Part shown: positions 28,497 through 43,493 of the stretch, in pieces
Position numbering within the stretch: the first letter of the stretch is position 1
Layout of the letters: each line of letters begins with the position of its first letter
DNA from: Deltaproteobacteria bacterium
GTDB taxonomy: Bacteria > Bacillota > Desulfotomaculia > Desulfotomaculales > JAGUVT01
DNA: 43,493 bases
Reading direction: 5' to 3'
Assembly: GCA_020062745.1 (NCBI GenBank)
Contig: JAGUVT010000008.1
Location: 1 to 43,493, forward strand
Position numbers and translations under genes: made by a program
Notes under the pieces: generated by a model
What the model saw: the letters and a program-made list of their open reading frames with translations, nothing else
What the model was told of the DNA's origin: nothing
Database searches by the model: none

Positions 28497-29735
28497 TTAG
28501 GTTTTGAACTGTGTGGATAAAACATTTAACCGGTCTGACATACGCACCAGTTTTTTAGCCAGAGAATGAATATCTTGCAGGTTTTCCGGCTTGATTTGTA
28601 AGTTGCTGTTGCTTTCGTTATTGTTATTGTTGAAATTAGTAAATTTTTCGAGGATACTGGTGTGGTTTTCTGAAATTTTCTCAATATTACTTGACTGTTT
28701 GTGAATTGTCGAAGCGATTTCTTCAACGTTGTTTTTGATTTGCTGTAAAGACGAGTAGACGTTTTCCAGCCAATCGTTCATTTCCTCAGAAATATTAGGG
28801 TTGCTTGCCATATCTTCCAGGCTGATGTCTATAGTTTCTGCTGCTGAGGTCCATTTCGTTTCGGCGTTTTTCGTTCTTTGGCTTAATTGCTCTAAACCCC
28901 GGCTCACTTCTTCTCTGATCCGGTTCATTCCCTCGGCGGCCGCAGTTAATTTAGTATTGCCGGAATGGGCGGCCTGTAGTGCCGCTTCAATCGTAAATGT
29001 CTTGCTTGTTTCCAGTAGATCAGTGATTTGATTGAAAGTTTCCGTTAAATCCAGTTCCTTTTCAGTGAGTTCCGCCAGTGTGTTCCGGACAGACTCCAGA
29101 GAAGGAAATGTTTTGTTCAGGCTGGCGGCAATTTTATCGTTGGCGATAGCTTTTTCTTCGATAGATTGCAAGGTTTTATTTACCTCGGATAATGTTTGCA
29201 GGATGTGATCCATTGTATGTTTAGACTGGTTGGATAATTGACCGGTAATGGCCAGGGATTGCTGCAGGGTATCTGAGATGTTTTTATATTCTGGAGAAGA
29301 ATCGTCAGTTAATTGTTGATTCTGGCCATATAACCGGGTGAAATTTACTATTTGCTGGACTTTATTGTTGATGTCTGCGGCGCTGGATTTGGTTGACTGA
29401 ATTAAGTATGCTAGATTTATGACCATGGTATTGAAAGATTTGGCCAGGTCTTTCAGGTCGCCTTTCATTTTAGTGTCAACCCGGCAAGAAAAATCACCGT
29501 TGGCTACTTTTTCGGTAACGGCTGTCAGTTCTTTGATCGCTGTTGTCAGTTGACGCTTGCTTTTCAACAATGCCAGCATGAATCCTGCCAGTACCGCTGC
29601 GATAATGGATATTCCTATGCTGACGGTGGATTTTTGGTTGATTTCTTTTAAGATATAAAAGTCAATGCCGGTGTAAAAGAACATCAGCGCAAGCGAGCCC
29701 AGTAAAAAGAGATAAATGAATGTTTTGATGTTCAT
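28497..29735 (-). CDS. Chemoreceptor-like membrane protein with degenerate signalling tip
   Basis: The 412-residue protein has two membrane helices (about 5-27 and 38-58) separated by a very short loop, then a HAMP-like segment (about 60-112, VANGDFSCRVDTKMKGDLKD) and a long coiled coil. FTIEAALQAAHSG resembles the hairpin tip of methyl-accepting chemotaxis proteins, but the ALNAAIEAARAGE and RKLAE core residues that bind CheA/CheW are mostly lost. It therefore probably does not signal through CheA in the usual way. It overlaps the DUF192 gene by an ATGA and is the last gene of the pilus cluster. It has no outside sensor domain to speak of. Confidence 0.78.
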   Translation of the reverse strand: MNIKTFIYLFLLGSLALMFFYTGIDFYILKEINQKSTVSIGISIIAAVLAGFMLALLKSKRQLTTAIKELTAVTEKVANGDFSCRVDTKMKGDLKDLAKSFNTMVINLAYLIQSTKSSAADINNKVQQIVNFTRLYGQNQQLTDDSSPEYKNISDTLQQSLAITGQLSNQSKHTMDHILQTLSEVNKTLQSIEEKAIANDKIAASLNKTFPSLESVRNTLAELTEKELDLTETFNQITDLLETSKTFTIEAALQAAHSGNTKLTAAAEGMNRIREEVSRGLEQLSQRTKNAETKWTSAAETIDISLEDMASNPNISEEMNDWLENVYSSLQQIKNNVEEIASTIHKQSSNIEKISENHTSILEKFTNFNNNNNESNSNLQIKPENLQDIHSLAKKLVRMSDRLNVLSTQFKT

Positions 29736-30106
29736 GAGATTTCCCCCATTAAGTTTAGTTGCAGTTGATCCCCGACAGCAGTGCCGGTTTCGGCAATCCG
29801 TCCGGCGGCAAGCTCTATCACTAAATATGAGCCTTTGATAATGGGACTGAATTTATATGGTTTTAATTTTTCAATTATGTGTATGATGACAGCGTTTTTA
29901 TCGACAAAGATGACGTCGATGGGAAAACGCATAAAAAATGTGTGTACCGAGTTGCAGGGCAGGATAATCATCGCTTCTTCAGGAGGTAAACAAGCCTTTC
30001 CGATCAGACCCTTCAGCCGCCGGCTGAAACTGCTGGCTATATGTACATTTTCGGCCAGAATATGGTTACGGCTTAAATTTACCAGTCCTGTTGTTTTACA
30101 TCCCAT
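29732..30106 (-). CDS. DUF192 family protein
   Basis: The 124-residue protein fits DUF192: SFSRRLKGLIGK near the N-terminus, then HTFFMRFPIDVIFVDK, and VIELAAGRIAETGTAVGD towards the end. The biochemical role of the family is not known. ATG 30106 follows AAGGAGC. It lies between tadC and the chemoreceptor-like gene and is part of the tad transcript by spacing. Confidence 0.88.
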   Translation of the reverse strand: MGCKTTGLVNLSRNHILAENVHIASSFSRRLKGLIGKACLPPEEAMIILPCNSVHTFFMRFPIDVIFVDKNAVIIHIIEKLKPYKFSPIIKGSYLVIELAAGRIAETGTAVGDQLQLNLMGEIS

Positions 30107-30127
30107 AGTTTTAGCTCCTTTTTTTGC

Positions 30128-31060
30128 TTAAGACTTCATAAATGCTCTGCTGATCTGGATGGCGGCCGGACCGAGCAGCACAATGAATATAGCCGGAAAG
30201 ATGAACAAGACCATCGGAATTAATATCTTTATCGGTGTTTTCATGGCCATCTCTTCAGCCCTTTGGCGCCGTTTTTGGCGCATTTGGGTTGATTGGAGGC
30301 GAAGAACATTACTGATGCTTATTCCTAGCTGATCGGCCATAATGATTGCAGCCGCGAAAGTTGAAAAGTCGTTTACCTGGATTCGTTCGGCCATGTCGCG
30401 CAAGGCTTCCATTCTTGGTTTGCCTACTTTTATCTCCTGGAGTGTCTGGCGGAACTCGTTCGCCAGGATTCCTTTTGTTTTTTCCACTACTTTCATTACG
30501 GCGCTGTCGAATCCCAAACCGGCTTCTACGCTTACGGTCAGCAGATCCAGGATGTCGGGCAGGCTTCTTTCTATTTCTTCCTGTCGCTTCGCGAAGCTCC
30601 TTTTGAGGAAGAAATCAGGCAGCATCCATCCCAGCCCCAGTCCGGCGGCTCCCATAAGAAAAACCTGGGTTATCTCCTTCCCGAGCGTACTGCCGATCAA
30701 GAAAAGGCAAAAGGCTATGCCGGATGCTGCTGCATATTTGACAATTAAAAATTCGGTGGGTGATATTTTATTTTTCATTCCGGCCATTAAAATTTTCTTT
30801 TCCAGCACCGCCTTTTTTTCGGCCGGCAGCATTTTTGTCAGGATTTCGGTGAGCCTGCCCAATAAAGGTTTAACGGCTCTTTGCCACAGAGGGTTTTTTA
30901 ACTCCTTTTCACGGTAGGTGGACAGTGTTTCGCTGCCCATTATTTCACTTACCCGTTTCGCCATCAGAATCTGCTCACCGAAAATAAACTGGTAAGCCAA
31001 AAGGAAGAATAAAAAGGCTGTGCCGAAAGCAGTTGCGGCGATAAATTCCAACAAGGCCAT
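30128..31060 (-). CDS. tadC: Tad pilus inner-membrane platform protein TadC
   Basis: The 310-residue protein carries a type II secretion F domain (about 165-290; SVEAGLGFDSAVMKVVEKTK and ADQLGISISNVLRLQSTQMR). About four membrane helices are present, with a pair near the N-terminus and one at the C-terminus. It forms the assembly platform with TadB, pushed by the CpaF ATPase. ATG 31060 follows GGAGGAGGG. Confidence 0.92.
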   Translation of the reverse strand: MALLEFIAATAFGTAFLFFLLAYQFIFGEQILMAKRVSEIMGSETLSTYREKELKNPLWQRAVKPLLGRLTEILTKMLPAEKKAVLEKKILMAGMKNKISPTEFLIVKYAAASGIAFCLFLIGSTLGKEITQVFLMGAAGLGLGWMLPDFFLKRSFAKRQEEIERSLPDILDLLTVSVEAGLGFDSAVMKVVEKTKGILANEFRQTLQEIKVGKPRMEALRDMAERIQVNDFSTFAAAIIMADQLGISISNVLRLQSTQMRQKRRQRAEEMAMKTPIKILIPMVLFIFPAIFIVLLGPAAIQISRAFMKS

Positions 31061-31121
31061 CCCTCCTCCAAATATACTTTTGCGGTTTATGCGTGTGCTG
31101 CAAGTGGCATTTGTGCGCGCT

Positions 31122-32087
31122 TCAAATTTTTATGTCGATGATTTTCTTTATTATGATAAAACCGACCACCTGTGAAGCCAGGGCCATGCTTATAAGCAGC
31201 AGTCCGAAGGCGGTAGTAAACAAAATTGAAATGTAGGCCGGGTTGATAAGGTAAAGGATGCCGGTAAGCACTGCCGGCAAAAGCCCGATGATTAAACCTG
31301 ATATTCTGCTTTGAGCGGTAAGTGTTTTGATCTCTCCTTTGATTCGCACCCTTTCCCTAATGGTGTTGGCTATGTTGTCTATTACTTCGGCCAGGTTGCC
31401 TCCCACCTGGCGTTGGATCAATAAGGCGGTTACAACCAGGTCCAGATCTTCGCTGTCGACCCGTCTGGTCAGGTTGTTCAGCGCTTCCTCGGTGGGTATG
31501 CCCCAGTTCATTTCCTGGAGGGTGACGTCGAACTCTCTGGAGATTGGCAAAGGCATTTCCTGTTTGACCATTTGCATGGCCTGCAGGAAGCTGAATCCGG
31601 AACGCAGGGAGTTCGATATAATGACGAGGGCGTCCCCGATTTGGTCATTAAACCTGGACAGCCTTTTGGCCTTGGCTATCCGGAGGGTGAAAAAAGCGAG
31701 GTAGCCGGATATGGCCGCAGCTAAAATTCCCAATATGATATTTTCAGCCAAAAGACCGAAGAAAACCCCGGCTGTCAGCCCTATTATCAGAACCAGGGCG
31801 AGAAATTCTTCCCCCTTCAACGGCAGGTTGGCCATAGCTAAATGCCTGTCCACAAGCCTGGCGATATTTTTGGGGACGAACAGCCTGCCGGCTACTGTCA
31901 GGATTTGCCAGCCTGTTTTATGGTGGTTTGTATTTTTTTCAGGCAAACGCCGCTTCCTCTGACTTCCTGGAAGCCTGGAAAGCAGTTCTGCCGCCAGTTT
32001 TTTTCCTTCCCGGTTCTTTTCCCGGATGCTTATTACGGCGAGAAAGACCGCAAAGAATACGGAAAATATAATAATTATAAGTTCCAA
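31122..32087 (-). CDS. tadB: Tad pilus inner-membrane platform protein TadB
   Basis: The 321-residue protein has an N-terminal helix, a basic segment, two central helices (about 90-135), the type II secretion F domain (SNSLRSGFSFLQAMQMVKQE, RQVGGNLAEVIDNIANTIRE) and two C-terminal helices. TTG 32087 follows AGAGGTG. It sits between cpaF and tadC in the standard order. Confidence 0.92.
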   Translation of the reverse strand: MELIIIIFSVFFAVFLAVISIREKNREGKKLAAELLSRLPGSQRKRRLPEKNTNHHKTGWQILTVAGRLFVPKNIARLVDRHLAMANLPLKGEEFLALVLIIGLTAGVFFGLLAENIILGILAAAISGYLAFFTLRIAKAKRLSRFNDQIGDALVIISNSLRSGFSFLQAMQMVKQEMPLPISREFDVTLQEMNWGIPTEEALNNLTRRVDSEDLDLVVTALLIQRQVGGNLAEVIDNIANTIRERVRIKGEIKTLTAQSRISGLIIGLLPAVLTGILYLINPAYISILFTTAFGLLLISMALASQVVGFIIIKKIIDIKI

Positions 32088-32107
32088 GGCTGAACACCTC
32101 TTTAATC

Positions 32108-33451
32108 TTAAATTGGCGCCGGCTCAAAAGTCTCTTTGGGCAGGGATATCCCGAATGCTTCAAGTTTTTCAATGCATTTCGGCCTGATGCCGGTAGCTGA
32201 AAATCCTCCTTTGATTGTATTGTCGCTGTTAACTCCTGTTTGCTTGAACAGATAAACATCCTGAAGGACGATAACATCGCCCTCCATGCCCTGAATTTCA
32301 GTGACATGAGTGATTTTTCGCGAGCCGTCCCGCAGGCGGTTTTGGTGAATAATCAGGTCTATGGCCGAAGATATTTGGTCGCGTATAGCTTTAATCGGCA
32401 GTTCCATACCGGCCATCATCACCATTGTTTCCAGGCGTGAGAGCATATCTCTGGGAGTATTGGCGTGGCCGGTGGTAAGTGAACCGTCGTGGCCGGTATT
32501 CATAGCCTGAAGCATGTCGAGAGCTTCGCCGCTGCGGACTTCACCCACCACGATTCGATCCGGCCGCATCCGCAGGGCGTTGCGGACCAGGTCGCGAATG
32601 GTTATGCTGCCCTTGCCTTCAATGTTGGGGGGTCGGCTTTCCAGGGAAAGCACATGTTTTTGCCGGAGCTGCAGTTCGGCGGCGTCTTCAATGGTGATGA
32701 TCCGTTCGTTGTCCGGGATAAATGACGAAAGTACGTTTAAGGTGGTTGTTTTACCGCTGCCGGTACCCCCTGATACGATTATGTTCAGCCTGCCCTTCAC
32801 ACATGCCTCCAGGAATTCGGCCATCTGCGGGGTAAGTGTGTTGAGCTTGATCAGTTCCTCCATGGTCAGCAGGTCGCGAAAAAATTTTCTTATGGTGACG
32901 GTAGGCCCGTTTAAAACCAGCGGCGGAATAATGGCGTTTACCCTGGACCCGTCCGGCAGCCGGGCGTCTACCATGGGCATCGCCTCGTCGATGTGCCTTC
33001 CGATGGGAGCTACGATCTTCTCAATAACGTGCATCACGTGCGCGTTATTACGGAACTTCACGTCTACCTGTTCAATAAGACCTTTTTTCTCTACGTAGAC
33101 CTGGTTCGGGCCGTTGATCATAATTTCGTTTATCTCGGAATCGCTCAATAAAGGAGTAATCGGCCCGAAGCCGATAGTATCGTCAATTATTTCTGAAGCG
33201 ATGCGCTGCCGCTCCTGGCGCGGGATATAATCCCCCTCGCTGTCCAGCATCTCAAATACTATTGTTTCGATTCTCGGCGCCAGTTCCTCCACGGTGTTTT
33301 CTTTTCCCGGCGGCAGGTCTTTCAGTTCTTCAATAATTTTTTTGCGCAAATTGTTCTTCAACTGACTGTAAGGATCCTTCTGGCGCGTGGTATAAATATT
33401 TTCGGCTATCTCCGGAGTTCTTTGTTTTTCAAGCCTTTCTCGCAGGGACAC
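32108..33451 (-). CDS. cpaF: Tad pilus assembly ATPase CpaF/TadA
   Basis: The 447-residue ATPase powers pilin assembly. Walker A is GGTGSGKTTT (about 228-237), the Asp-box-like segment IEDAAELQL follows, and RIVVGEVRSGEA and TTGHANTPRDML are the Walker B and His-box regions. GTG 33451 lies six bases after AGAGGTGA; a GTG at 33460 sits inside that site. It overlaps the end of the cpaE gene by about 23 bases. Confidence 0.95.
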   Translation of the reverse strand: MSLRERLEKQRTPEIAENIYTTRQKDPYSQLKNNLRKKIIEELKDLPPGKENTVEELAPRIETIVFEMLDSEGDYIPRQERQRIASEIIDDTIGFGPITPLLSDSEINEIMINGPNQVYVEKKGLIEQVDVKFRNNAHVMHVIEKIVAPIGRHIDEAMPMVDARLPDGSRVNAIIPPLVLNGPTVTIRKFFRDLLTMEELIKLNTLTPQMAEFLEACVKGRLNIIVSGGTGSGKTTTLNVLSSFIPDNERIITIEDAAELQLRQKHVLSLESRPPNIEGKGSITIRDLVRNALRMRPDRIVVGEVRSGEALDMLQAMNTGHDGSLTTGHANTPRDMLSRLETMVMMAGMELPIKAIRDQISSAIDLIIHQNRLRDGSRKITHVTEIQGMEGDVIVLQDVYLFKQTGVNSDNTIKGGFSATGIRPKCIEKLEAFGISLPKETFEPAPI

Positions 33452-34682
33452 GGCTTTCACCTCTTAGAGTTAATAGTTTTTCAAAAAATTTTTTTTTCGC
33501 TCCCAACTCTTTTATTGCAATTGTTTTATCAGAAGCGATTTTTCTGGATAATTCACCGATTGACTGGGATATTTTGCTGTTTGCCTGGGTCAGGATGAAT
33601 GGCTGCCCCTTATTTATAGAGGAAAGCACATTTTTTTCGTCGTACGGCAGAATCGCTAAAGGGGTGTTCTTCAGGTTTTTTTCAATATCGGCAATACTGA
33701 TTCCATATTCCGGCGCAATTTGGTTCAGCACAAGTTTTACTTTATGGGTGACGTTCAAGTTTTCTATTACTTCCAGGTCGGTTTTTACATGTTTCAGCCC
33801 CGGCAGGGTATTGGTTGCTATTAAAAGCACCTGATCGGATGTTTCTAAAGCGCTTAAAGTGATGTCACCGAAAGAAGGTGCGGTGTCCACGATAACAAAA
33901 TCAAAGTTTTCTTTCAAATGCCGCAGTATTCCTTCTATCTGGGCGGCAGTGACCAGTTCGGCCTGTTCCGGGCGAAGCGGCGCAGGAAGAACCCTGATTC
34001 CGGAGATATGGGGAGCCAGGTAACCATCCAGCAGCGATAGCTCCAGGTAGTCTTCTTCTGAAACCAGTTCCGCAACGGTTCCTTTCGGCGTGATGTTAAG
34101 CATGACGGCCACGTCGCCTCCCTGCAAGTTTATATCCGCTATAGCCACTTTTTTCTTTGTTTCCTGAAGCAGGCTGATGGCGAGATTGCAGGCCAGGGTG
34201 GTTTTGCCCACGCCGCCCTTGCTGGAAAAAAAGGTTATAATTTTTCCGGGAGCCGATTTTTTCGTATTTGCCGCGACTTGTGCGGTACCAGCCGGTCTGC
34301 GGGGGGCCCGTTTCTGGGCAAGCCTGATGGTTTCAGACAGGTCGTTGCTGCTGAAAGGCTTTACCAGATAGTCCCGCGCTCCGGCGGTCATCGCTTTCCT
34401 TAAGTATTCGGGCTCGCCCTGGATAGAGATGATTACCACTGTCGTTTCCGGGAATCGTTCGGCAATTAAGGCCGTAGCCTCTATTCCGTCCATGCCCGGC
34501 ATATTGATGTCCATCAGCACTACATCCGGCCTTAAGCTTTCGGTCAGTTGCAATGCTTCTTCTCCTCTGCCTGCTTCGCCGACGACGGTAATGTCTTCTT
34601 CGAAGTAGAGGAGGCGTTTGATGTCTTCTCTCGTATTGGCGATGTCATCGACAATGAGCACCTTAATGCTGTTCATCTTCAT
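33429..34682 (-). CDS. cpaE: CpaE-like receiver-MinD ATPase fusion
   Basis: The 417-residue protein joins a response-regulator receiver (1-120) to a ParA/MinD ATPase (about 147-390). The receiver keeps D12, D13, D58 (VLMDINMPG) and K108, so it looks able to accept phosphate. The ATPase has the deviant Walker A SSKGGVGKTT (K155 and K160). CpaE proteins place the pilus machinery in the cell. In Caulobacter the receiver is degenerate; here it is intact. Confidence 0.92.
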   Translation of the reverse strand: MKMNSIKVLIVDDIANTREDIKRLLYFEEDITVVGEAGRGEEALQLTESLRPDVVLMDINMPGMDGIEATALIAERFPETTVVIISIQGEPEYLRKAMTAGARDYLVKPFSSNDLSETIRLAQKRAPRRPAGTAQVAANTKKSAPGKIITFFSSKGGVGKTTLACNLAISLLQETKKKVAIADINLQGGDVAVMLNITPKGTVAELVSEEDYLELSLLDGYLAPHISGIRVLPAPLRPEQAELVTAAQIEGILRHLKENFDFVIVDTAPSFGDITLSALETSDQVLLIATNTLPGLKHVKTDLEVIENLNVTHKVKLVLNQIAPEYGISIADIEKNLKNTPLAILPYDEKNVLSSINKGQPFILTQANSKISQSIGELSRKIASDKTIAIKELGAKKKFFEKLLTLRGESRVPARKA

Positions 34683-34691
34683 CCCTCCTTG

Positions 34692-35408
34692 TTACCTGAG
34701 CAACTGACTTGTCTTTGTCGAAGGCAGGGACACGATATCCTGATCGGTTACCGGACGCAGCAGGACCCGGATGGTACCCTTTTCGGAACACAGGATTAAC
34801 GGTTGTGCCTGTTCCGGCGTTACCGCTACAGTGATTGTGCGCGGCCCAGCAGTCTTTTTGTCGCTGGCGCTGTTTTCAGTGGTCTGGTCCGTAGAAAGAA
34901 CGGTTGCGTTCTGGACCAGAAGCGACGTGTAAGTTGCTTTTTCCTGGCCTACCGCGCCCTGCAGGTCGAAAGTGCCCATTATGTCTATGTGGTCTCCGGG
35001 TTTAAGTTGTCCTGCCAGCCCGGAGACTTCATTTACGGCGATTGTCGCTGCCCGCTTACCCTGCTCAAGCAAGTAGGAGAGGCCGTCGGCTTTCTCTCCC
35101 TCACCGGCTATTTTGCCGGAAAGGATTTGTTCGCCGGGGAAGATGTCGGCTTTAGCTACTTTGTTTATGACATCTTCGGGTTTTGTCAGAGCTTGTTTAT
35201 TAATGTATTCTGACGGTGTATCTTTGAGTTCGACCATCTGGGCGGTTATTTTTGTTCTCGCCGGGATCGGCTTGCCGGCTACAACCACTCTGGTAAAATT
35301 ACTGGTGCTGCGGTAGGTGTCCTTAATGTTGACAAGGTAGTAGTAGATGCTGCCGGCGGCGATTAGCCCGAAGATTACGGCTGCGAATAAGATCATTTTG
35401 TTTTTCAT
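34692..35408 (-). CDS. cpaB: CpaB/RcpC pilus assembly protein, SAF domain
   Basis: The 238-residue protein has one N-terminal membrane helix (about 4-24), then a SAF domain (VVVAGKPIPARTKITAQMVE) and the RcpC/CpaB domain (LKPGDHIDIMGTF and TITVAVTPEQAQPLILCSEK). In monoderms its role is unclear because there is no outer-membrane secretin; wall anchoring is plausible. ATG 35408 has AGGGTGG five bases upstream. Confidence 0.9.
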   Translation of the reverse strand: MKNKMILFAAVIFGLIAAGSIYYYLVNIKDTYRSTSNFTRVVVAGKPIPARTKITAQMVELKDTPSEYINKQALTKPEDVINKVAKADIFPGEQILSGKIAGEGEKADGLSYLLEQGKRAATIAVNEVSGLAGQLKPGDHIDIMGTFDLQGAVGQEKATYTSLLVQNATVLSTDQTTENSASDKKTAGPRTITVAVTPEQAQPLILCSEKGTIRVLLRPVTDQDIVSLPSTKTSQLLR

Positions 35409-35422
35409 GAATTCCACCCTCG

Positions 35423-36370
35423 TTATTCGATTAATTTTACTCCCCGGAGACCGTAGTCAACCTGGAAGTAGTCGGAGTCCCCTTCGGCCACCATTTTTAT
35501 AAAGCAGCCTTCGATATAGTTGTCGTTGCCCTGTCCTTCAACCCTTTCCACCAGGAAGGCGGCAAATCCGAGAATTTTGATCTGTTTGATCTGGCCGTCT
35601 TCCAAGAGGTTGGGCTCGTAAACCGGGATAATGAGTATTTTCGGGCAGCCGGGGTCAAAACTGGTTGCAGTGCATTCCGGTACATGATTGCATCTGTCGA
35701 TGCGGTAGTCGATGGCCCTTTTTGTGGGATTGGACATGTTTCCTGTTTCAGTGTTTACTATATCTCCCACTCGCAGGGTCTCCTGATAGCCGTACTTCAG
35801 GTTGTCTTCATAGTTTCTTGCCCCGGTGCCGCCGAGAGACAGGGCTCCGTAAGTACCCGGCCCCAGCGGGGAACCGTCGTTGTTGGAACCTTGCTTCAAA
35901 AGATATCTGGTATTGAAATCAAACTCCTGGTCGGGTATGGCCAGCGGGGCGGCTCCCCTGTGGGAGGTGAGTGCGGCAACCCGGGCGGAGGCATTAGCGC
36001 TGACCGTGCCCGAGGTAAAGCCCAATACTTTGGCAAAAATATAATCAACCTGCCTGGTGGCGGTGACCGTTATCTTGCTGTTGGTAACCGGGTCGATTTC
36101 AGGCTCGTCAGGATTGCAGCCGTTTTGCAGGGCGTAACTGACGGCGGTATCCCGTGCCAGCAGTGGTTTTTCCGGCAGTTCGTGGGCCCCGGCCAGGACG
36201 GCGGCGTCTACTGCGTTGACGAGGCTTTGTTTGTTGGCTGCCAACAAGCCGATATCGGTAACCAGGGCGGTAATGCCCAGAAGGGCAATCATGCTGATCA
36301 CTACCATTACCATGGCAACCCCCCGCTGATCGCTTAAAAAACAGTTCAAGGCTCTTTTTAACTGGTTCAC
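35423..36370 (-). CDS. TadG-like pseudopilin/surface protein
   Basis: The 315-residue protein begins DQRGVAMVMVVISMIALL, a class III pilin-like N-terminus followed by one membrane helix and the TadG-type stretch AANKQSLVNAVDAAVLAGAH. The outer part has seven or so cysteine-containing or Gly-Asn-rich segments (RCNHVPECTATSFDPGC) and could fold outside the cell. GTG 36370 follows GGGAGG by seven bases; a longer frame to 36799 only re-reads tadE. It sits 14 bases after tadE. Confidence 0.85.
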   Translation of the reverse strand: MNQLKRALNCFLSDQRGVAMVMVVISMIALLGITALVTDIGLLAANKQSLVNAVDAAVLAGAHELPEKPLLARDTAVSYALQNGCNPDEPEIDPVTNSKITVTATRQVDYIFAKVLGFTSGTVSANASARVAALTSHRGAAPLAIPDQEFDFNTRYLLKQGSNNDGSPLGPGTYGALSLGGTGARNYEDNLKYGYQETLRVGDIVNTETGNMSNPTKRAIDYRIDRCNHVPECTATSFDPGCPKILIIPVYEPNLLEDGQIKQIKILGFAAFLVERVEGQGNDNYIEGCFIKMVAEGDSDYFQVDYGLRGVKLIE

Positions 36371-36384
36371 TTTGGCGCCTCCCT

Positions 36385-36789
36385 TCACTCTATACGCATG
36401 GTTGTTGTAATTGCGAGCGGAAAAGGATCCGGTATGATGGCTGCGATCAACGGTACGACGAGGTCTACGGTATAGTCTAAACTTACTGTGAGCGGTACTC
36501 CCCTGGTACGCGATGCGGGGTCCACGGGGCTGATTGAAATACTCAAACTTGACCGGTCGAGAGAACCGGCGGCAGTTTCTATTTTGGAAATGATTTCGCT
36601 GTCGGCATGTCCCACTGCGCCTGCTCTGGCGCCTTCTCTGGCGGCATTGGTGATGATCAGGTAAGAGTATAGTATTCTGCCGCTTTCGATAGTTCCCATA
36701 AGCAGAATAAGCAGCAACGGTAAAACCAGCGCGAATTCCACCATGGTCTGCCCTTTGTGGTCTTTTACTGTTTTTGCTAAGAACCGCAA
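36385..36789 (-). CDS. tadE: TadE-like pseudopilin
   Basis: The 134-residue protein starts with a basic leader, then GQTMVEFALVLPLLLILLMG, the prepilin-type site with glutamate at +5 and a hydrophobic helix, and NAAREGARAGAVG, typical of TadE. A prepilin peptidase must cut after the glycine of KGQTMVE. TTG 36789 follows GAGGTG by nine bases. Confidence 0.92.
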   Translation of the reverse strand: MRFLAKTVKDHKGQTMVEFALVLPLLLILLMGTIESGRILYSYLIITNAAREGARAGAVGHADSEIISKIETAAGSLDRSSLSISISPVDPASRTRGVPLTVSLDYTVDLVVPLIAAIIPDPFPLAITTTMRIE

Positions 36790-36851
36790 GGCTATTCACC
36801 TCATAAGGAAGAAAGAGCCTAAAAAGACATTTCTTCCGTTTGGTTAAAGTT

Positions 36852-37246: not shown

Positions 37247-37903
37247 TCAGGAGATCTCAGCCAGCTTATTTTTTATGGCATAGAGGGCGGCCTGGGTGCG
37301 GTCGATCACACCGATTTTTTGGAATATACTGGTGATATGGTTTTTCACTGTTTTTTCACTTAAGTATAACTTCTGGGCAATTGAACGGTTGTTATCTCCA
37401 TGGGCAATTAGTTTTAAAACTTCCATTTCTCTTTTAGTTAATCCATCTGGTTGATTTTGTGATGAAATTAAATGAGAAAGACGGTTAAACTCTGTAAAAA
37501 CCTTGGTGGTCATGGAAGGATGGATAAACGAGTTTCCTTTTGATACTCCGATGATGGTTTCGATCAGCAAATCCGGACTGATGTCCTTCAACAGATAACC
37601 GGATATTCCGGCGTTAATTAACTCAAAAAGGTATTCCTCCTGGTTGTGAATGGTAAGGGCTATGATGCCGATTTGCGGTTTTTCTTTTTTAATTGTTTTG
37701 GTCGCAGAAATACCGTTGGTTTTTGGCATATTGATATCCATCAGAATAATGTCCGGGTTGAATTTAACGGCATATTCGATTGTTTTCTCCCCATCATCTG
37801 CTTCGGCTACAACTTCTATTCTAGGATCGGTAGATAAAATTTTGCGCAGACCTTCCCGGATCAAAGCATGATCGTCGGCAATCAGCACTTTTATTTTTTC
37901 CAA
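37247..37903 (-). CDS. NarL/DegU-family response regulator
   Basis: The 218-residue protein has a receiver with D10-D11, the phospho-accepting D56 (IILMDINMP) and K near 105 (YLLKDIS). A LuxR-type helix-turn-helix follows (about 150-215; LTKREMEVLKLIAHGDNNRS and LSEKTVKNHITSIFQKIGV). TTG 37903 lies nine bases after GGGAGG; TTG 37912 abuts that site. It is paired with the upstream DegS-like kinase and precedes flp, so pilus genes are the likely target. Confidence 0.92.
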   Translation of the reverse strand: MEKIKVLIADDHALIREGLRKILSTDPRIEVVAEADDGEKTIEYAVKFNPDIILMDINMPKTNGISATKTIKKEKPQIGIIALTIHNQEEYLFELINAGISGYLLKDISPDLLIETIIGVSKGNSFIHPSMTTKVFTEFNRLSHLISSQNQPDGLTKREMEVLKLIAHGDNNRSIAQKLYLSEKTVKNHITSIFQKIGVIDRTQAALYAIKNKLAEIS

Positions 37904-37944
37904 ATCCGGCAACCTCCCTGCAGTAAGTTTTTTAACATGTTGTT

Positions 37945-39078
37945 TTAAGTAGTCAGGGGAACGGAAATGCTTATCGATGTACCCTGTCCGGGCGCAGTGG
38001 AAATGACCATTTCTCCAGCAAGCAACTGCACTCTTTCGCGCATGCTGATCAGTCCATACCCCTTTCGCTCGGAATTATTAATAATCTTGAGATCGAATCC
38101 CTGTCCGTTGTCTTTTATCTGAATGTTTATTTTTTTTGTCAGGAACTCCATTTTTACCAGTGCCTGCCTGGCACGGGCGTGTTTTCTGATGTTGCTCAGA
38201 GCTTCTTGAATGATTCTAAAAAGAGAAACTTCGATGGAATTATCCAGCCGGCGTTCAGTACCGAATGATAGAAACTCTACCGGCAGGTTGTACTGTTCTT
38301 TCATTTCAGTTACGTATCTCTTAACAGCCGGGGCCAAACCAAGGTCGTCCAGAACCATGGGTCTTAAGTCGAAGATAATTTTTCTTATATCTTGCAAGCT
38401 GTCGCGCACCAGCTTCTGCAGTGCCTGTAGTTCTTCTCCTATTCTGGATGGTTCTAGGTCGAGTAATTTTAGACAAAAATCTGTCCTCATAACCACGTTA
38501 GCCATAGACTGGGCCGGACCGTCATGAATCTCACGAGCCACCCGTTTGCGCTCTTCTTCCTGAGCTTTGATAATACTGAGAGCCATTTGCTGGGTTTGCT
38601 GCAATTCTCCGATTTTAGAACTGAGATCATGTAAGTTGCCGCTTAAGAAATTCAGCACAACTCCTACCTGGGAAACCAGTTTTTCTGCTCTTTGGCTTGT
38701 CGATTGTAACCGTTGCAGGCTGATTTCTAACTGGTTGCGCCTGAAACGTAATAGTTTTTCCTTCTCTTGAAGGGTAATCAGCCTGGTCTGTAGATTATAG
38801 GCTTTGTCATATGCTTCTTTAATATCTTTTTCGGTATAACGGTGAAAATCTTTACTTACTTCCATTAACCTTATACGGGCTTTTTTTTCTTTCTTCTCCA
38901 GTTCGTCTACAGTAATTATGATGTTTTTTACCTCTTCTTTAAGCGCAGCCAGTTCATTGCTGACTCTCTCAAATTCACTCCGGGAATTTTCGGCAATATC
39001 GTAGATCTGGAACTTGCTTTTTTCGATTGCCTGGATAGTTTCTTTAATGATCCGGTCAAGGGCGCACGCATCAACCAT
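37945..39078 (-). CDS. DegS-like cytosolic histidine kinase
   Basis: The 377-residue kinase lacks membrane helices. Its N-terminal half is a long coiled coil (about 15-165), as in DegS. The HisKA_3 segment has ERKRVAREIHDGPAQSMANV with the phospho-accepting histidine at about 185. The ATPase domain shows RIIQEALSNIRKHARA (N box), DNGQGFD (G1) and GYGLISMRERV (G2). ATG 39078 has GGGGTGA upstream. It forms a two-component system with the next gene; the signal is unknown and must act inside the cell. Confidence 0.93.
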   Translation of the reverse strand: MVDACALDRIIKETIQAIEKSKFQIYDIAENSRSEFERVSNELAALKEEVKNIIITVDELEKKEKKARIRLMEVSKDFHRYTEKDIKEAYDKAYNLQTRLITLQEKEKLLRFRRNQLEISLQRLQSTSQRAEKLVSQVGVVLNFLSGNLHDLSSKIGELQQTQQMALSIIKAQEEERKRVAREIHDGPAQSMANVVMRTDFCLKLLDLEPSRIGEELQALQKLVRDSLQDIRKIIFDLRPMVLDDLGLAPAVKRYVTEMKEQYNLPVEFLSFGTERRLDNSIEVSLFRIIQEALSNIRKHARARQALVKMEFLTKKINIQIKDNGQGFDLKIINNSERKGYGLISMRERVQLLAGEMVISTAPGQGTSISISVPLTT

Positions 39079-39249
39079 AACTTTCACCCCGGAAAATATA
39101 GTTGCTTTTTTAGATTGTCGGGTTTATAAGCACATACTTGTTTTAACCTTGTTCTTCCTCCGGGGGATTTTTCCTTCTGCTGTGAAATACATAATTTGAT
39201 CATTAAAAGTAAAACTATAATGGTAATAATTTAGAAAAGAGGTGCTTGT

Positions 39250-40510: not shown

Positions 40511-40894
40511 ATGAAACAGCCTTTGGGCCGCCATGTATTAGCTGAAATTTGTGGGTGTGACTACAAGATTCTTAATGATCTAGAAAAGGTAGAAGAAATA
40601 ATGGTTAACGCAGCATTAGAAGCCGGAGCTGAAGTTAGGGAATGTGTCTTCCACAAATTCAGCCCTCAAGGGGTGAGCGGGGTAGTGGTAATATCGGAGT
40701 CGCACCTTGCCATTCATACCTGGCCGGAACTGGGTTATGCGGCCGTAGATGTTTTTACGTGTGGTAGAAAAGTAGACCCGCTGGATATGTGTAACTATCT
40801 GGCTGGCCATTTCGATGCCGAACATATGATTGCCAAAGAAACAGAGCGGGGCATGTTACTGGAAACTGAGTTTAGAGAGGTTGTAAATTATTAG
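40511..40894 (+). CDS. speD: S-adenosylmethionine decarboxylase, prokaryotic class
   Basis: The 127-residue proenzyme makes decarboxylated SAM for spermidine synthesis. It cuts itself between E63 and S64 in [14 protein letters not shown] to create the pyruvoyl cofactor; H69 (HTWPE) and C84 (FTCG) are the other conserved active-site residues. The length is typical of the short bacterial form. ATG 40511 follows AAAGGAGG. No speE is next to it. Confidence 0.96.
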
Positions 40895-41060: not shown

Positions 41061-41831
41061 GTGCCTGTGTTAAGGGAAATCCTGCGGCCGATTGAAGGTG
41101 ATCTGCAGAGCGTACAGGACAAAATACAAAAAAATCTGCTGTCCAGGGCGGGGTGTGTAGGTTCATTTGCCCATTTGGAGGTTTCTTACCTTAATCAGGT
41201 TATCCGGCCGGCGTTAGTTATTCTGGCAGGCAGGCTTTTTAATTATTCGGCTGAGAAAACTATTATGTTAGCCGGGATTTTTCAATTTATTTACATGGCT
41301 TCACAGATCCATGCCGGAATTTCTGACAGTGACAGCGACGAAAACAAAAATTACGGCTCCAAGTTCCCGGTACTTGTTGGAGATTACCTTTACGGAAAAT
41401 TTTTTACTTTTCTATGTGATGCAGGTATTATCAGGTTTTTACAACCATTAGCAGAAATTATATGTTCTATCAATGAAGGTAGAATCTTAAAGCAAAATGC
41501 TGGTGGTGCATATGATACCCATCCGCTTATTTTTAAAGAAATAATATCAAAAGAAATGGCAACACTTTTTGCCGGGTGTTGCCGTTTGGGCGCCTGTCTT
41601 TCTTCTGCTGAGGAAGAGAATCAGAAATACTTGTACCGGTTCGGCTTTAATTTGGGAGTGGCTTATGGCATGATGGAACAGGGAGACCCTTTTAAACAGG
41701 GGAATAACTTCTTCCATTGCGCTTTAGCTGAACTGGAGCGTGTGCCGGCTAAACCGGAACGCGATGTTCTGGCAGAACTGGTTCGGTTTTTGTCGGGTAA
41801 CGGAGTTGCCAGCCGGCGCTTGGTGGGATGA
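41061..41831 (+). CDS. Polyprenyl-synthase-like protein without the catalytic Asp motifs
   Basis: The 256-residue protein resembles trans-isoprenyl diphosphate synthases (SYLNQVIRPALVILAGRLF, IFQFIYMASQIHAG, GSKFPVLVGDYLYGKFF, MATLFAGCCRLGACLS). The first DDxxD motif expected after ASxxH is replaced by AGISDSDSD, and the second (GxxFQxxDDxxD) by GVAYGMMEQGDPF. It probably lacks chain-elongating activity and may act as a regulatory or structural partner of an active synthase, as in two-subunit heptaprenyl synthases, or have a new role. It starts at GTG 41061 after GGAGAGG and is followed by menG. Confidence 0.75.
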   Translation: MPVLREILRPIEGDLQSVQDKIQKNLLSRAGCVGSFAHLEVSYLNQVIRPALVILAGRLFNYSAEKTIMLAGIFQFIYMASQIHAGISDSDSDENKNYGSKFPVLVGDYLYGKFFTFLCDAGIIRFLQPLAEIICSINEGRILKQNAGGAYDTHPLIFKEIISKEMATLFAGCCRLGACLSSAEEENQKYLYRFGFNLGVAYGMMEQGDPFKQGNNFFHCALAELERVPAKPERDVLAELVRFLSGNGVASRRLVG

Positions 41832-41862: not shown

Positions 41863-42588
41863 ATGAATCCTGCCCGTGAGAGCAACAAAGAAAAGGAAGA
41901 GTATGTGCATAGCATTTTTTCGTCTATTGCTGGCTGCTATGATTTGTTAAACACGGTCTTGAGCTTTAACCGGGACAAATACTGGCGCCGTTTTGCTGTT
42001 GTCCGGACAGAATTGCAGCCGGGGGGAAAGGGACTGGATGTTTGCTGCGGTACAGGGATGCTGGCTCTGGAGCAGTCGAAAGTGGTAGGGGCAAATGGTC
42101 GCGTAACCGGTCTGGATTTTTGTGCCAATATGCTGGCTAAAGCCAGTGAAAATATCAGCCGTACGCCCTTTGCCGGAGTGATTGAGCTGGTCTTGGGCAA
42201 GGCCACCGAGATGCCTTTTCCTGACAACACTTTTGACTGTGCTACCATCGGCTTTGCCTTGCGCAACGTGCCCGATATCAGAAAAACAATTGGGGAAATG
42301 CGCCGGGTGGTCAGGCCGGGCGGGAAAGTGGTTTCCCTGGAGTTGTCCAAGCCGGGAGCGTTTTTGTTCAAGCAGATATATTACCTTTACTTTAACCATG
42401 TAGTGCCTTTCCTGGGTCGGATTGGAGTCGGCCTGACCGGTCCGTACAGCTACCTGCCCAATTCTTTAAAGGACTTCCCCCATCAGGCTGAGATTAGAGA
42501 CTTGTTTGCCGCCGAAGGATTGGCCGGCGCCCATTATTACGAGCTTACCGGAGGGGTAGTGGCGGTTCACGTAGGAACAAAAGTGTGA
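41863..42588 (+). CDS. menG: Demethylmenaquinone methyltransferase MenG/UbiE
   Basis: The 241-residue class I methyltransferase adds the last methyl group to menaquinone. YVHSIFSSIAGCYDLLNTVL and NRDKYWRR open it, LDVCCGTGMLALEQ is the SAM-binding motif I, and GFALRNVPDIRKTIGEMRRV and PYSYLPNSLKDFP are UbiE signatures. ATG 41863 lies nine bases after GAGGAG. It follows the polyprenyl-synthase-like gene by 31 bases and precedes a ubiD-type gene, as in menaquinone operons. Confidence 0.94.
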   Translation: MNPARESNKEKEEYVHSIFSSIAGCYDLLNTVLSFNRDKYWRRFAVVRTELQPGGKGLDVCCGTGMLALEQSKVVGANGRVTGLDFCANMLAKASENISRTPFAGVIELVLGKATEMPFPDNTFDCATIGFALRNVPDIRKTIGEMRRVVRPGGKVVSLELSKPGAFLFKQIYYLYFNHVVPFLGRIGVGLTGPYSYLPNSLKDFPHQAEIRDLFAAEGLAGAHYYELTGGVVAVHVGTKV

Positions 42589-42713: not shown

Positions 42714-43493
42714 TTGGGTTATCCCGATCTGCATGCTTTTGTGGCTGAGTTGGAAAAAAGAAAATTACTCAAGCGTATTAAGGTTGAGGTGGATGCCAGC
42801 CTGGAAATTACTGAAATATCCGACCGGGTGGTCAAAGCCGGCGGCCCGGCGTTATTTTTTGAAAATGTGAAGGGCTACCGGATGCCGGTGGTTACCAATC
42901 TTTTTGGCTCCCTGGAGCGGATGGAACTGGCGCTGCAGGTAGAAGACCTGGATCAAATCGGAGAAGAGTTATTAAGTATTTTGCAGCCGGCCGAGTTGCC
43001 GACTACTTTTATTGATAAGCTAAAAGCATTGCCTAAACTGGCCCGCCTTTCTTCTTTTGTTCCACGTTTGGTAAAAACCGGTCCGTGTAAAGAGGTAGTA
43101 TTCAGAGATAACCCTTCTCTGGCTGAGTTGCCTGTTTTGAAATGCTGGCCTGGTGACGGCGGCCCTTTTATTACCCTGCCGCTGGTATTTACTAAGGACC
43201 CGGAGACCGGCAGACGCAATGTGGGCATGTACCGGATGCAGATCTATAATGAAAATACAACCGGCATGCACTGGCATATTCACAAAGACGGGGCGGAACA
43301 CTGCCGCAGGTACCGGGAAGGCGAGAAACGGATGCCGGTAGCGGTAGCTCTGGGAGCCGACCCGGCGGTTATTTATGCGGCTACGGCGCCGTTACCGGCC
43401 GGCCTGGATGAGATGCTTTTTGCCGGTTTTCTGCGCAAAGAGCCGGTGGAAATGGTACGCTGTGAAACGGTGGACCTGGAGGTGCCGGCACGG
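42714..43493 (+). CDS. UbiD-family decarboxylase, 3' end beyond the window
   Basis: The frame opens at TTG 42714, eight bases after GAGAAGGTG, and runs open for 260 codons to the window edge. Visible residues include AELEKRKLLKRI near the start, LPVLKCWPGDGGPFITLPLV, GMYRMQIYNENTTGMHWHIH and KDGAEHCRRY, the last two being the prenyl-FMN-binding segments of UbiD enzymes. Full members have about 450-500 residues, so roughly half is missing. Next to menG it probably decarboxylates a quinone precursor. The gene name is left open because UbiD relatives act on many aromatic acids. Confidence 0.9.
   Translation, partial: MGYPDLHAFVAELEKRKLLKRIKVEVDASLEITEISDRVVKAGGPALFFENVKGYRMPVVTNLFGSLERMELALQVEDLDQIGEELLSILQPAELPTTFIDKLKALPKLARLSSFVPRLVKTGPCKEVVFRDNPSLAELPVLKCWPGDGGPFITLPLVFTKDPETGRRNVGMYRMQIYNENTTGMHWHIHKDGAEHCRRYREGEKRMPVAVALGADPAVIYAATAPLPAGLDEMLFAGFLRKEPVEMVRCETVDLEVPAR

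Follow-up and report, generated by a model that had tools for sequence, protein, structure and literature searches.

The window analyzed here, a stretch of 43,493 nucleotides, includes a menaquinone gene cluster that runs up to the contig end and contains a short homolog of trans-prenyl synthases. The genes of this region are as follows.

40511..40894, + strand: speD, S-adenosylmethionine decarboxylase (TIGR03330, 142.9 bits, over cut-off)
41061..41831, + strand: trans-prenyl synthase homolog, predicted to be catalytically dead and proposed as a HepS-type non-catalytic subunit (open reading frame of 256 aa, GTG start)
41863..42588, + strand: menG/ubiE, demethylmenaquinone methyltransferase (PF01209, 230 bits; NF001244, 225.6 bits, over cut-off)
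42714..43493, + strand: ubiD-family decarboxylase (mqnL-like), running off the contig end (PF01977, 205 bits; TIGR03701, 354.8 bits)

Gene neighbourhood in the window and in related genomes

The homolog, whose product we call the window protein, sits in a menaquinone cluster of the futalosine type, a route for which passages of PMC4746308 describe the steps MqnP, MqnL, MqnM, and MenG. Its end lies 31 bases short of the likely start of menG, an ATG at 41863 picked by an upstream GAGGAG and by the starts of homologs (the listed open reading frame, from 41740, overlaps the synthase homolog). Elsewhere in the window, the reverse strand carries a Flp/Tad-type pilus locus (28497-36799) with T2SSF, T2SSE, a CpaE-like ATPase with a receiver domain, RcpC/CpaB, and a small TadE-like protein (read from sequence), as well as a DegS-type sensor kinase just before the menaquinone cluster (37247-39087), beside which a LuxR/NarL-like response regulator was read from sequence.

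Gene order was compared among loci that carry short homologs of this type, using stretches of limited length, in which a gene missing from the locus is not necessarily missing from the genome. Within the window's order, all 38 loci have speD just upstream of the homolog and contain a menaquinone gene; menG comes directly next (within 400 bases) in 25 and is found somewhere in the locus in 29, and none of these 38 stretches holds a HepT gene. In the other nine loci of the order (among them L035, L038, L043, and L054), menG lies outside the menaquinone cluster, and ubiD is sometimes missing too; the short homolog stays. Elsewhere in the phylum, 35 loci gave a more varied picture: HepT in the locus in 15 (in L248 only 25 bases behind the short homolog), menG directly next in 9, menG in the locus in 15, fusion to menG in 5, and any menaquinone gene in 31. 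In each of the five Bacilli-type HepS loci, menG adjoins hepS and a HepT gene is present as well, and PMC8042841 gives the order hepS-menG-hepT for the Bacillus subtilis operon.

Motifs, fold, and conservation of the window protein

Against Pfam, the window protein matches the polyprenyl synthetase model PF00348 at 52 bits (E 7.2e-14; cut-off 27). PF07307, the HepS model, reaches 23.5 bits (E 4.6e-5), and the protein is formally outside that family because the 30-bit gathering cut-off is missed; the top NCBIfam match is GerC3_HepT (74 bits), far under its equivalog cut-off. The protein is predicted to adopt the trans-prenyl synthase fold: an AlphaFold2 model built from a 38-sequence alignment has a mean pLDDT of 89.9 and a pTM of 0.90, and comparisons of this model with Foldseek and VIA-align returned trans-prenyl synthases throughout, the top VIA Z being 28.6 for an alignment of 239 residues. 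The small subunit of snapdragon geranyl diphosphate synthase (3qkc_A), a non-catalytic protein, scored a VIA Z of 25.3; the structure tables hold one chain per entry, so that 3aqb is represented by 3aqb_B, and the HepS and HexA chains are absent from them.

Alignment with active enzymes located the following sites within the gene.

41310..41339, + strand: first Asp motif site, residues 84-93, with H84 kept and DDxxD..RR replaced (alignment)
41367..41405, + strand: retained PVLVGDYLYGKFF segment, residues 103-115 (GD in 66/66 motif-less sequences and 6/6 HepS)
41553..41555, + strand: E165, where active enzymes have the KT lysine (E in 53/66 motif-less sequences)
41664..41690, + strand: second Asp motif site, YGMMEQGDP, residues 202-210; the GKxxGxD segment behind it is deleted (alignment)

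At the first site, the H-DDVVD..RR of the HepT-like synthase from the same genome aligns with H84-A-G-I-S-D, and at the second its FQLTDDILD is replaced by YGMMEQGDP, which bears out the preliminary description of a protein with fold segments kept and both magnesium-binding aspartate motifs replaced, lying as a predicted dead copy in a menaquinone cluster and followed by menG. The same pattern extends to the motif-less relatives, of which 111 sequences (some genomes entering twice, via two collections) were reduced to 66 at a 55% identity limit. DDxxD occurs in 0/66 of these and 0/6 HepS, as against at least two copies in each of 25 HepT sequences (from which the partial HepT L105 was excluded), and the GKxxGxD segment is absent from all 66 and from all six HepS. 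G107 and D108, the GD pair, are present in 66/66 and H84 in 63/66, E or D still stands at the third Asp place of motif 1 in 51/66, and P50, L105, G107, D108, and G199 are invariant in a 38-sequence alignment of the order's short homologs. These losses, together with the retention of GD and H84, indicate at the level of sequence that the catalytic side has been lost, with one structural face tightly constrained.

The short, motif-less form was found in 39 of the 40 genomes searched in the order (38 by search and one, G027, via profile search), the sole genome without it being G014, which is 57% complete. This breadth, with no DDxxD in any of the 66 relatives, rules out a sequencing error that hides the motifs, a concern raised in the preliminary description. 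A decaying pseudogene, as the missing catalytic motifs might suggest, is refuted by conservation and has next to no probability, given a near-constant open frame (median 256 aa in the non-redundant set minus fused sequences), the presence across the order, the five invariant residues, and the confident predicted fold. That the protein binds metal in an unusual way and works alone as a prenyl or terpene synthase might be argued from the acidic residue at the third Asp place of motif 1, but neither Asp motif, nor the KT lysine, nor any of the GKxxGxD segment remains, and we regard it as highly improbable.

A search for an intact synthase elsewhere, proposed in the preliminary description along with the structure prediction, yielded two further PF00348 proteins in the same genome, on contigs C83 and C59, and a genome devoid of intact synthase was thus rejected. 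The C83 protein is HepT-like (325 aa from its first start), carries both Asp motifs, matches PF00348 over its full length at 237 bits, and has HepT as its best NCBIfam model at 342 bits, under the equivalog cut-off of 456.55. The C59 protein (296 aa) scores as an FPP synthase over cut-off. In the order, 40/40 genomes have a synthase match with a frame of 319-381 aa, and outside it, 38/38 genomes bearing the motif-less form have a near-full-length PF00348 match (E ≤ 1.6e-69). The C83 gene (L071:11646-12623) has hemA-like and hemC-like genes downstream, its protein has GT where 22/25 HepT sequences have GD, and the C59 gene adjoins an apparent xseB (these neighbour names were read from sequence).

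Relation to HepS and to other partner subunits

Compared with catalytic synthases of the HepT / IspB type (PF00348), the window protein has the same fold, the N-terminal two thirds, the GD motif, and H84, but lacks both Asp motifs, the KT lysine, and the GKxxGxD segment, and is shorter by ~70 residues. The closest comparison system is Bacillus HepS (PF07307), also called GerCA, which is component 1 of heptaprenyl diphosphate synthase and is represented by PDB 9kp1 chain A and 5h9d chain C. HepS and the window protein have in common a length of ~250 aa, the lack of Asp motifs, a menaquinone cluster with menG adjoining, an intact HepT in the genome, and a weak but consistent profile similarity. 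They differ in that the window protein is over the PF00348 cut-off and under that of PF07307, and in that hepT is not in the same cluster in the window's order, the HepT of this genome being on contig C83.

The profile similarity runs in both directions. All six HepS sequences score 35-49 bits on a profile of the motif-less family vs 4-17 on a HepT profile, and the HepS model gives a median of 22.7 bits for near members of the motif-less family vs 5.1 for HepT. By hhalign, probabilities are about 97.4 for the motif-less family with HepS, 79.4 for HepT with HepS, and 99.9 for the motif-less family with HepT. PF07307 is matched at E ≤ 1 by 28/38 family members, and in one of them, L103 (Carboxydocella), it scores above PF00348 (27.6 vs 16.1). 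The profile scores therefore place the motif-less family between HepT and HepS in sequence. On one point the preliminary description finds no support in these matches or in a gene order like hepS-menG-hepT, namely its view of HepS as belonging to another kind of protein.

Common origin of the motif-less family and HepS is likely on these sequence comparisons, and only likely, because trees are less clear than profiles. A careful tree of 51 sequences, out of 98, places the motif-less family and HepS opposite the active enzymes (support 100/99), the long-branched HepS L253 being among the sequences omitted; for this tree, the AU test does not reject a constraint that groups HepS with the active enzymes (p-AU 0.397). 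In a quick tree of all 98 sequences, the window protein falls beside active enzymes, the branch of HepS is long, and the grouping of HepS with the active enzymes has a p-AU of 0.903 and scores 26 log units better. We weighed whether the window protein is an independently inactivated HepT copy that came to a HepS role by convergence and is not an ortholog of Bacillus HepS. Its PF00348 score far above that of PF07307, the higher hhalign probability to HepT than to HepS, and the unrejected grouping in the AU tests would all fit such a history, while the better fit of all six HepS to the motif-less profile, the deletion and gene order common to both families, and the 51-sequence tree speak for shared descent; on balance, we hold convergence to be the less probable history, if one deserving some weight. 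It would alter the ancestry and leave the proposed function the same.

Non-catalytic partners of similar kind are known from other heteromeric synthases. HexA of the Micrococcus luteus B-P 26 hexaprenyl diphosphate synthase (PDB 3aqb) is the small non-catalytic subunit of a heterodimer, to which the window protein is likened by description; its structure was reportedly solved by Sasaki et al. in 2011 and is said to have a fold like that of the catalytic HexB. Within this superfamily, heteromers also include as partner subunits Dlp1 of fission yeast, PDSS2 of humans, and the small subunit of plant geranyl diphosphate synthase (PDB 3qkc); these are eukaryotic, showed no special sequence link to the window protein, and presumably represent inactivations separate from its own. 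According to PMC7839719, HexA is proposed to act with HexB in controlling chain length, and the large subunit of the plant enzyme is regulated by the small one; PMC5335738 describes Dlp1 and PDSS2 as partnering catalytic subunits. In the open-licence library searched, we found no paper on Desulfotomaculum heptaprenyl diphosphate synthase and menaquinone, or on a clostridial inactive component of prenyl synthase.

Proposed function and the fusions to MenG

Drawing on the predicted fold, the loss of both Asp motifs and of the remaining residues for diphosphate binding, the intact synthases elsewhere in the genome, the menaquinone cluster, the conservation in the order, and the sequence comparisons with HepS, we propose that the window protein is probably the HepS-type "component 1" of a heteromeric trans-prenyl diphosphate synthase making long chains, in which it would serve as the non-catalytic subunit. 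It would fold like one half of a synthase and pair with the HepT encoded on C83 via the retained side around the GDYLYGKFF helix, a conserved helix that we take to be at the dimer interface. Pairing may stabilize the complex and help set the prenyl chain length, with HepT performing the chemistry and MqnP/UbiA then using the chain. Counting against this proposal are the absence of HepT from all 38 loci of the order, so that the pair has no operon linkage there, and the cut-offs missed by both partners (23.5 vs 30 bits on PF07307 for the window protein, 342 vs 456.55 on the HepT equivalog model for the C83 protein). The preliminary description had suggested a new type of regulatory subunit or a carrier of the prenyl chain. 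A non-catalytic subunit is indeed the easiest reading of a dead copy with intact synthases elsewhere in the genome, but the likeness to HepS speaks against novelty of type: we see here a distinct variety of partner protein whose kind is already known, and not a new kind of system.

Single-frame fusions of the motif-less domain to MenG occur naturally at seven loci (~523-531 aa, with the motif-less domain at residues ~1-255, a linker of ~25, and MenG from ~277).

L122:5977-7551, fusion (Thermincola ferriacetica MAG)
L216:5530-7107, fusion
L217:5391-6986, fusion
L218:4637-6208, fusion
L219:5916-7490, fusion
L220:4504-6078, fusion
L261 (G134:C6), fusion

An assembly error is disfavoured as their source because they are present in several genera, and no paper on a prenyl synthase fused to demethylmenaquinone methyltransferase was found in the open-licence library searched. 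In the alignment of the fusions, the C-terminal part of the motif-less sequences was misplaced into the methyltransferase half. The fusions support a task shared with MenG and fit both scaffolding of HepT and handling of the tail. In the latter case, the dead fold would keep its hydrophobic pocket and act as a prenyl-chain carrier or scaffold, through which the tail, or else the prenylated quinone, would pass from HepT/UbiA on to MenG, as the single-chain fusions and the directly downstream menG in 25/38 loci of the order might suggest. However, menG is in the locus in only 29/38 cases within the order and 15/35 outside it, while other menaquinone genes or HepT are linked; the genomes with fusions retain intact synthases; and fusion would be expected just as much of a subunit that only scaffolds a synthase beside MenG. 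We therefore judge a carrier to be quite unlikely. A broader and speculative idea, also unlikely, is that the motif-less protein both pairs with HepT, for chain length, and docks onto MenG or, in some genomes, carries it as a fusion, such that in these anaerobic Bacillota the tail would be made and the quinone finished in one complex.

Returning to the HepS-type subunit that we favour, the PF00348 match invites the label of polyprenyl synthetase for the window protein, which is misleading. If the proposal is true, PF00348-matching proteins in many menaquinone-making Bacillota would be non-catalytic subunits, and a search by PF00348 only would overcount active enzymes. The position of the motif-less family between HepT and the far-diverged HepS allows a test of whether HepS descends from an active synthase, and the fusions to MenG offer a ready way to ask whether synthesis of the tail and methylation of the quinone are physically coupled. 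Heteromeric prenyl synthases would, on the same premise, extend well beyond the Bacilli.
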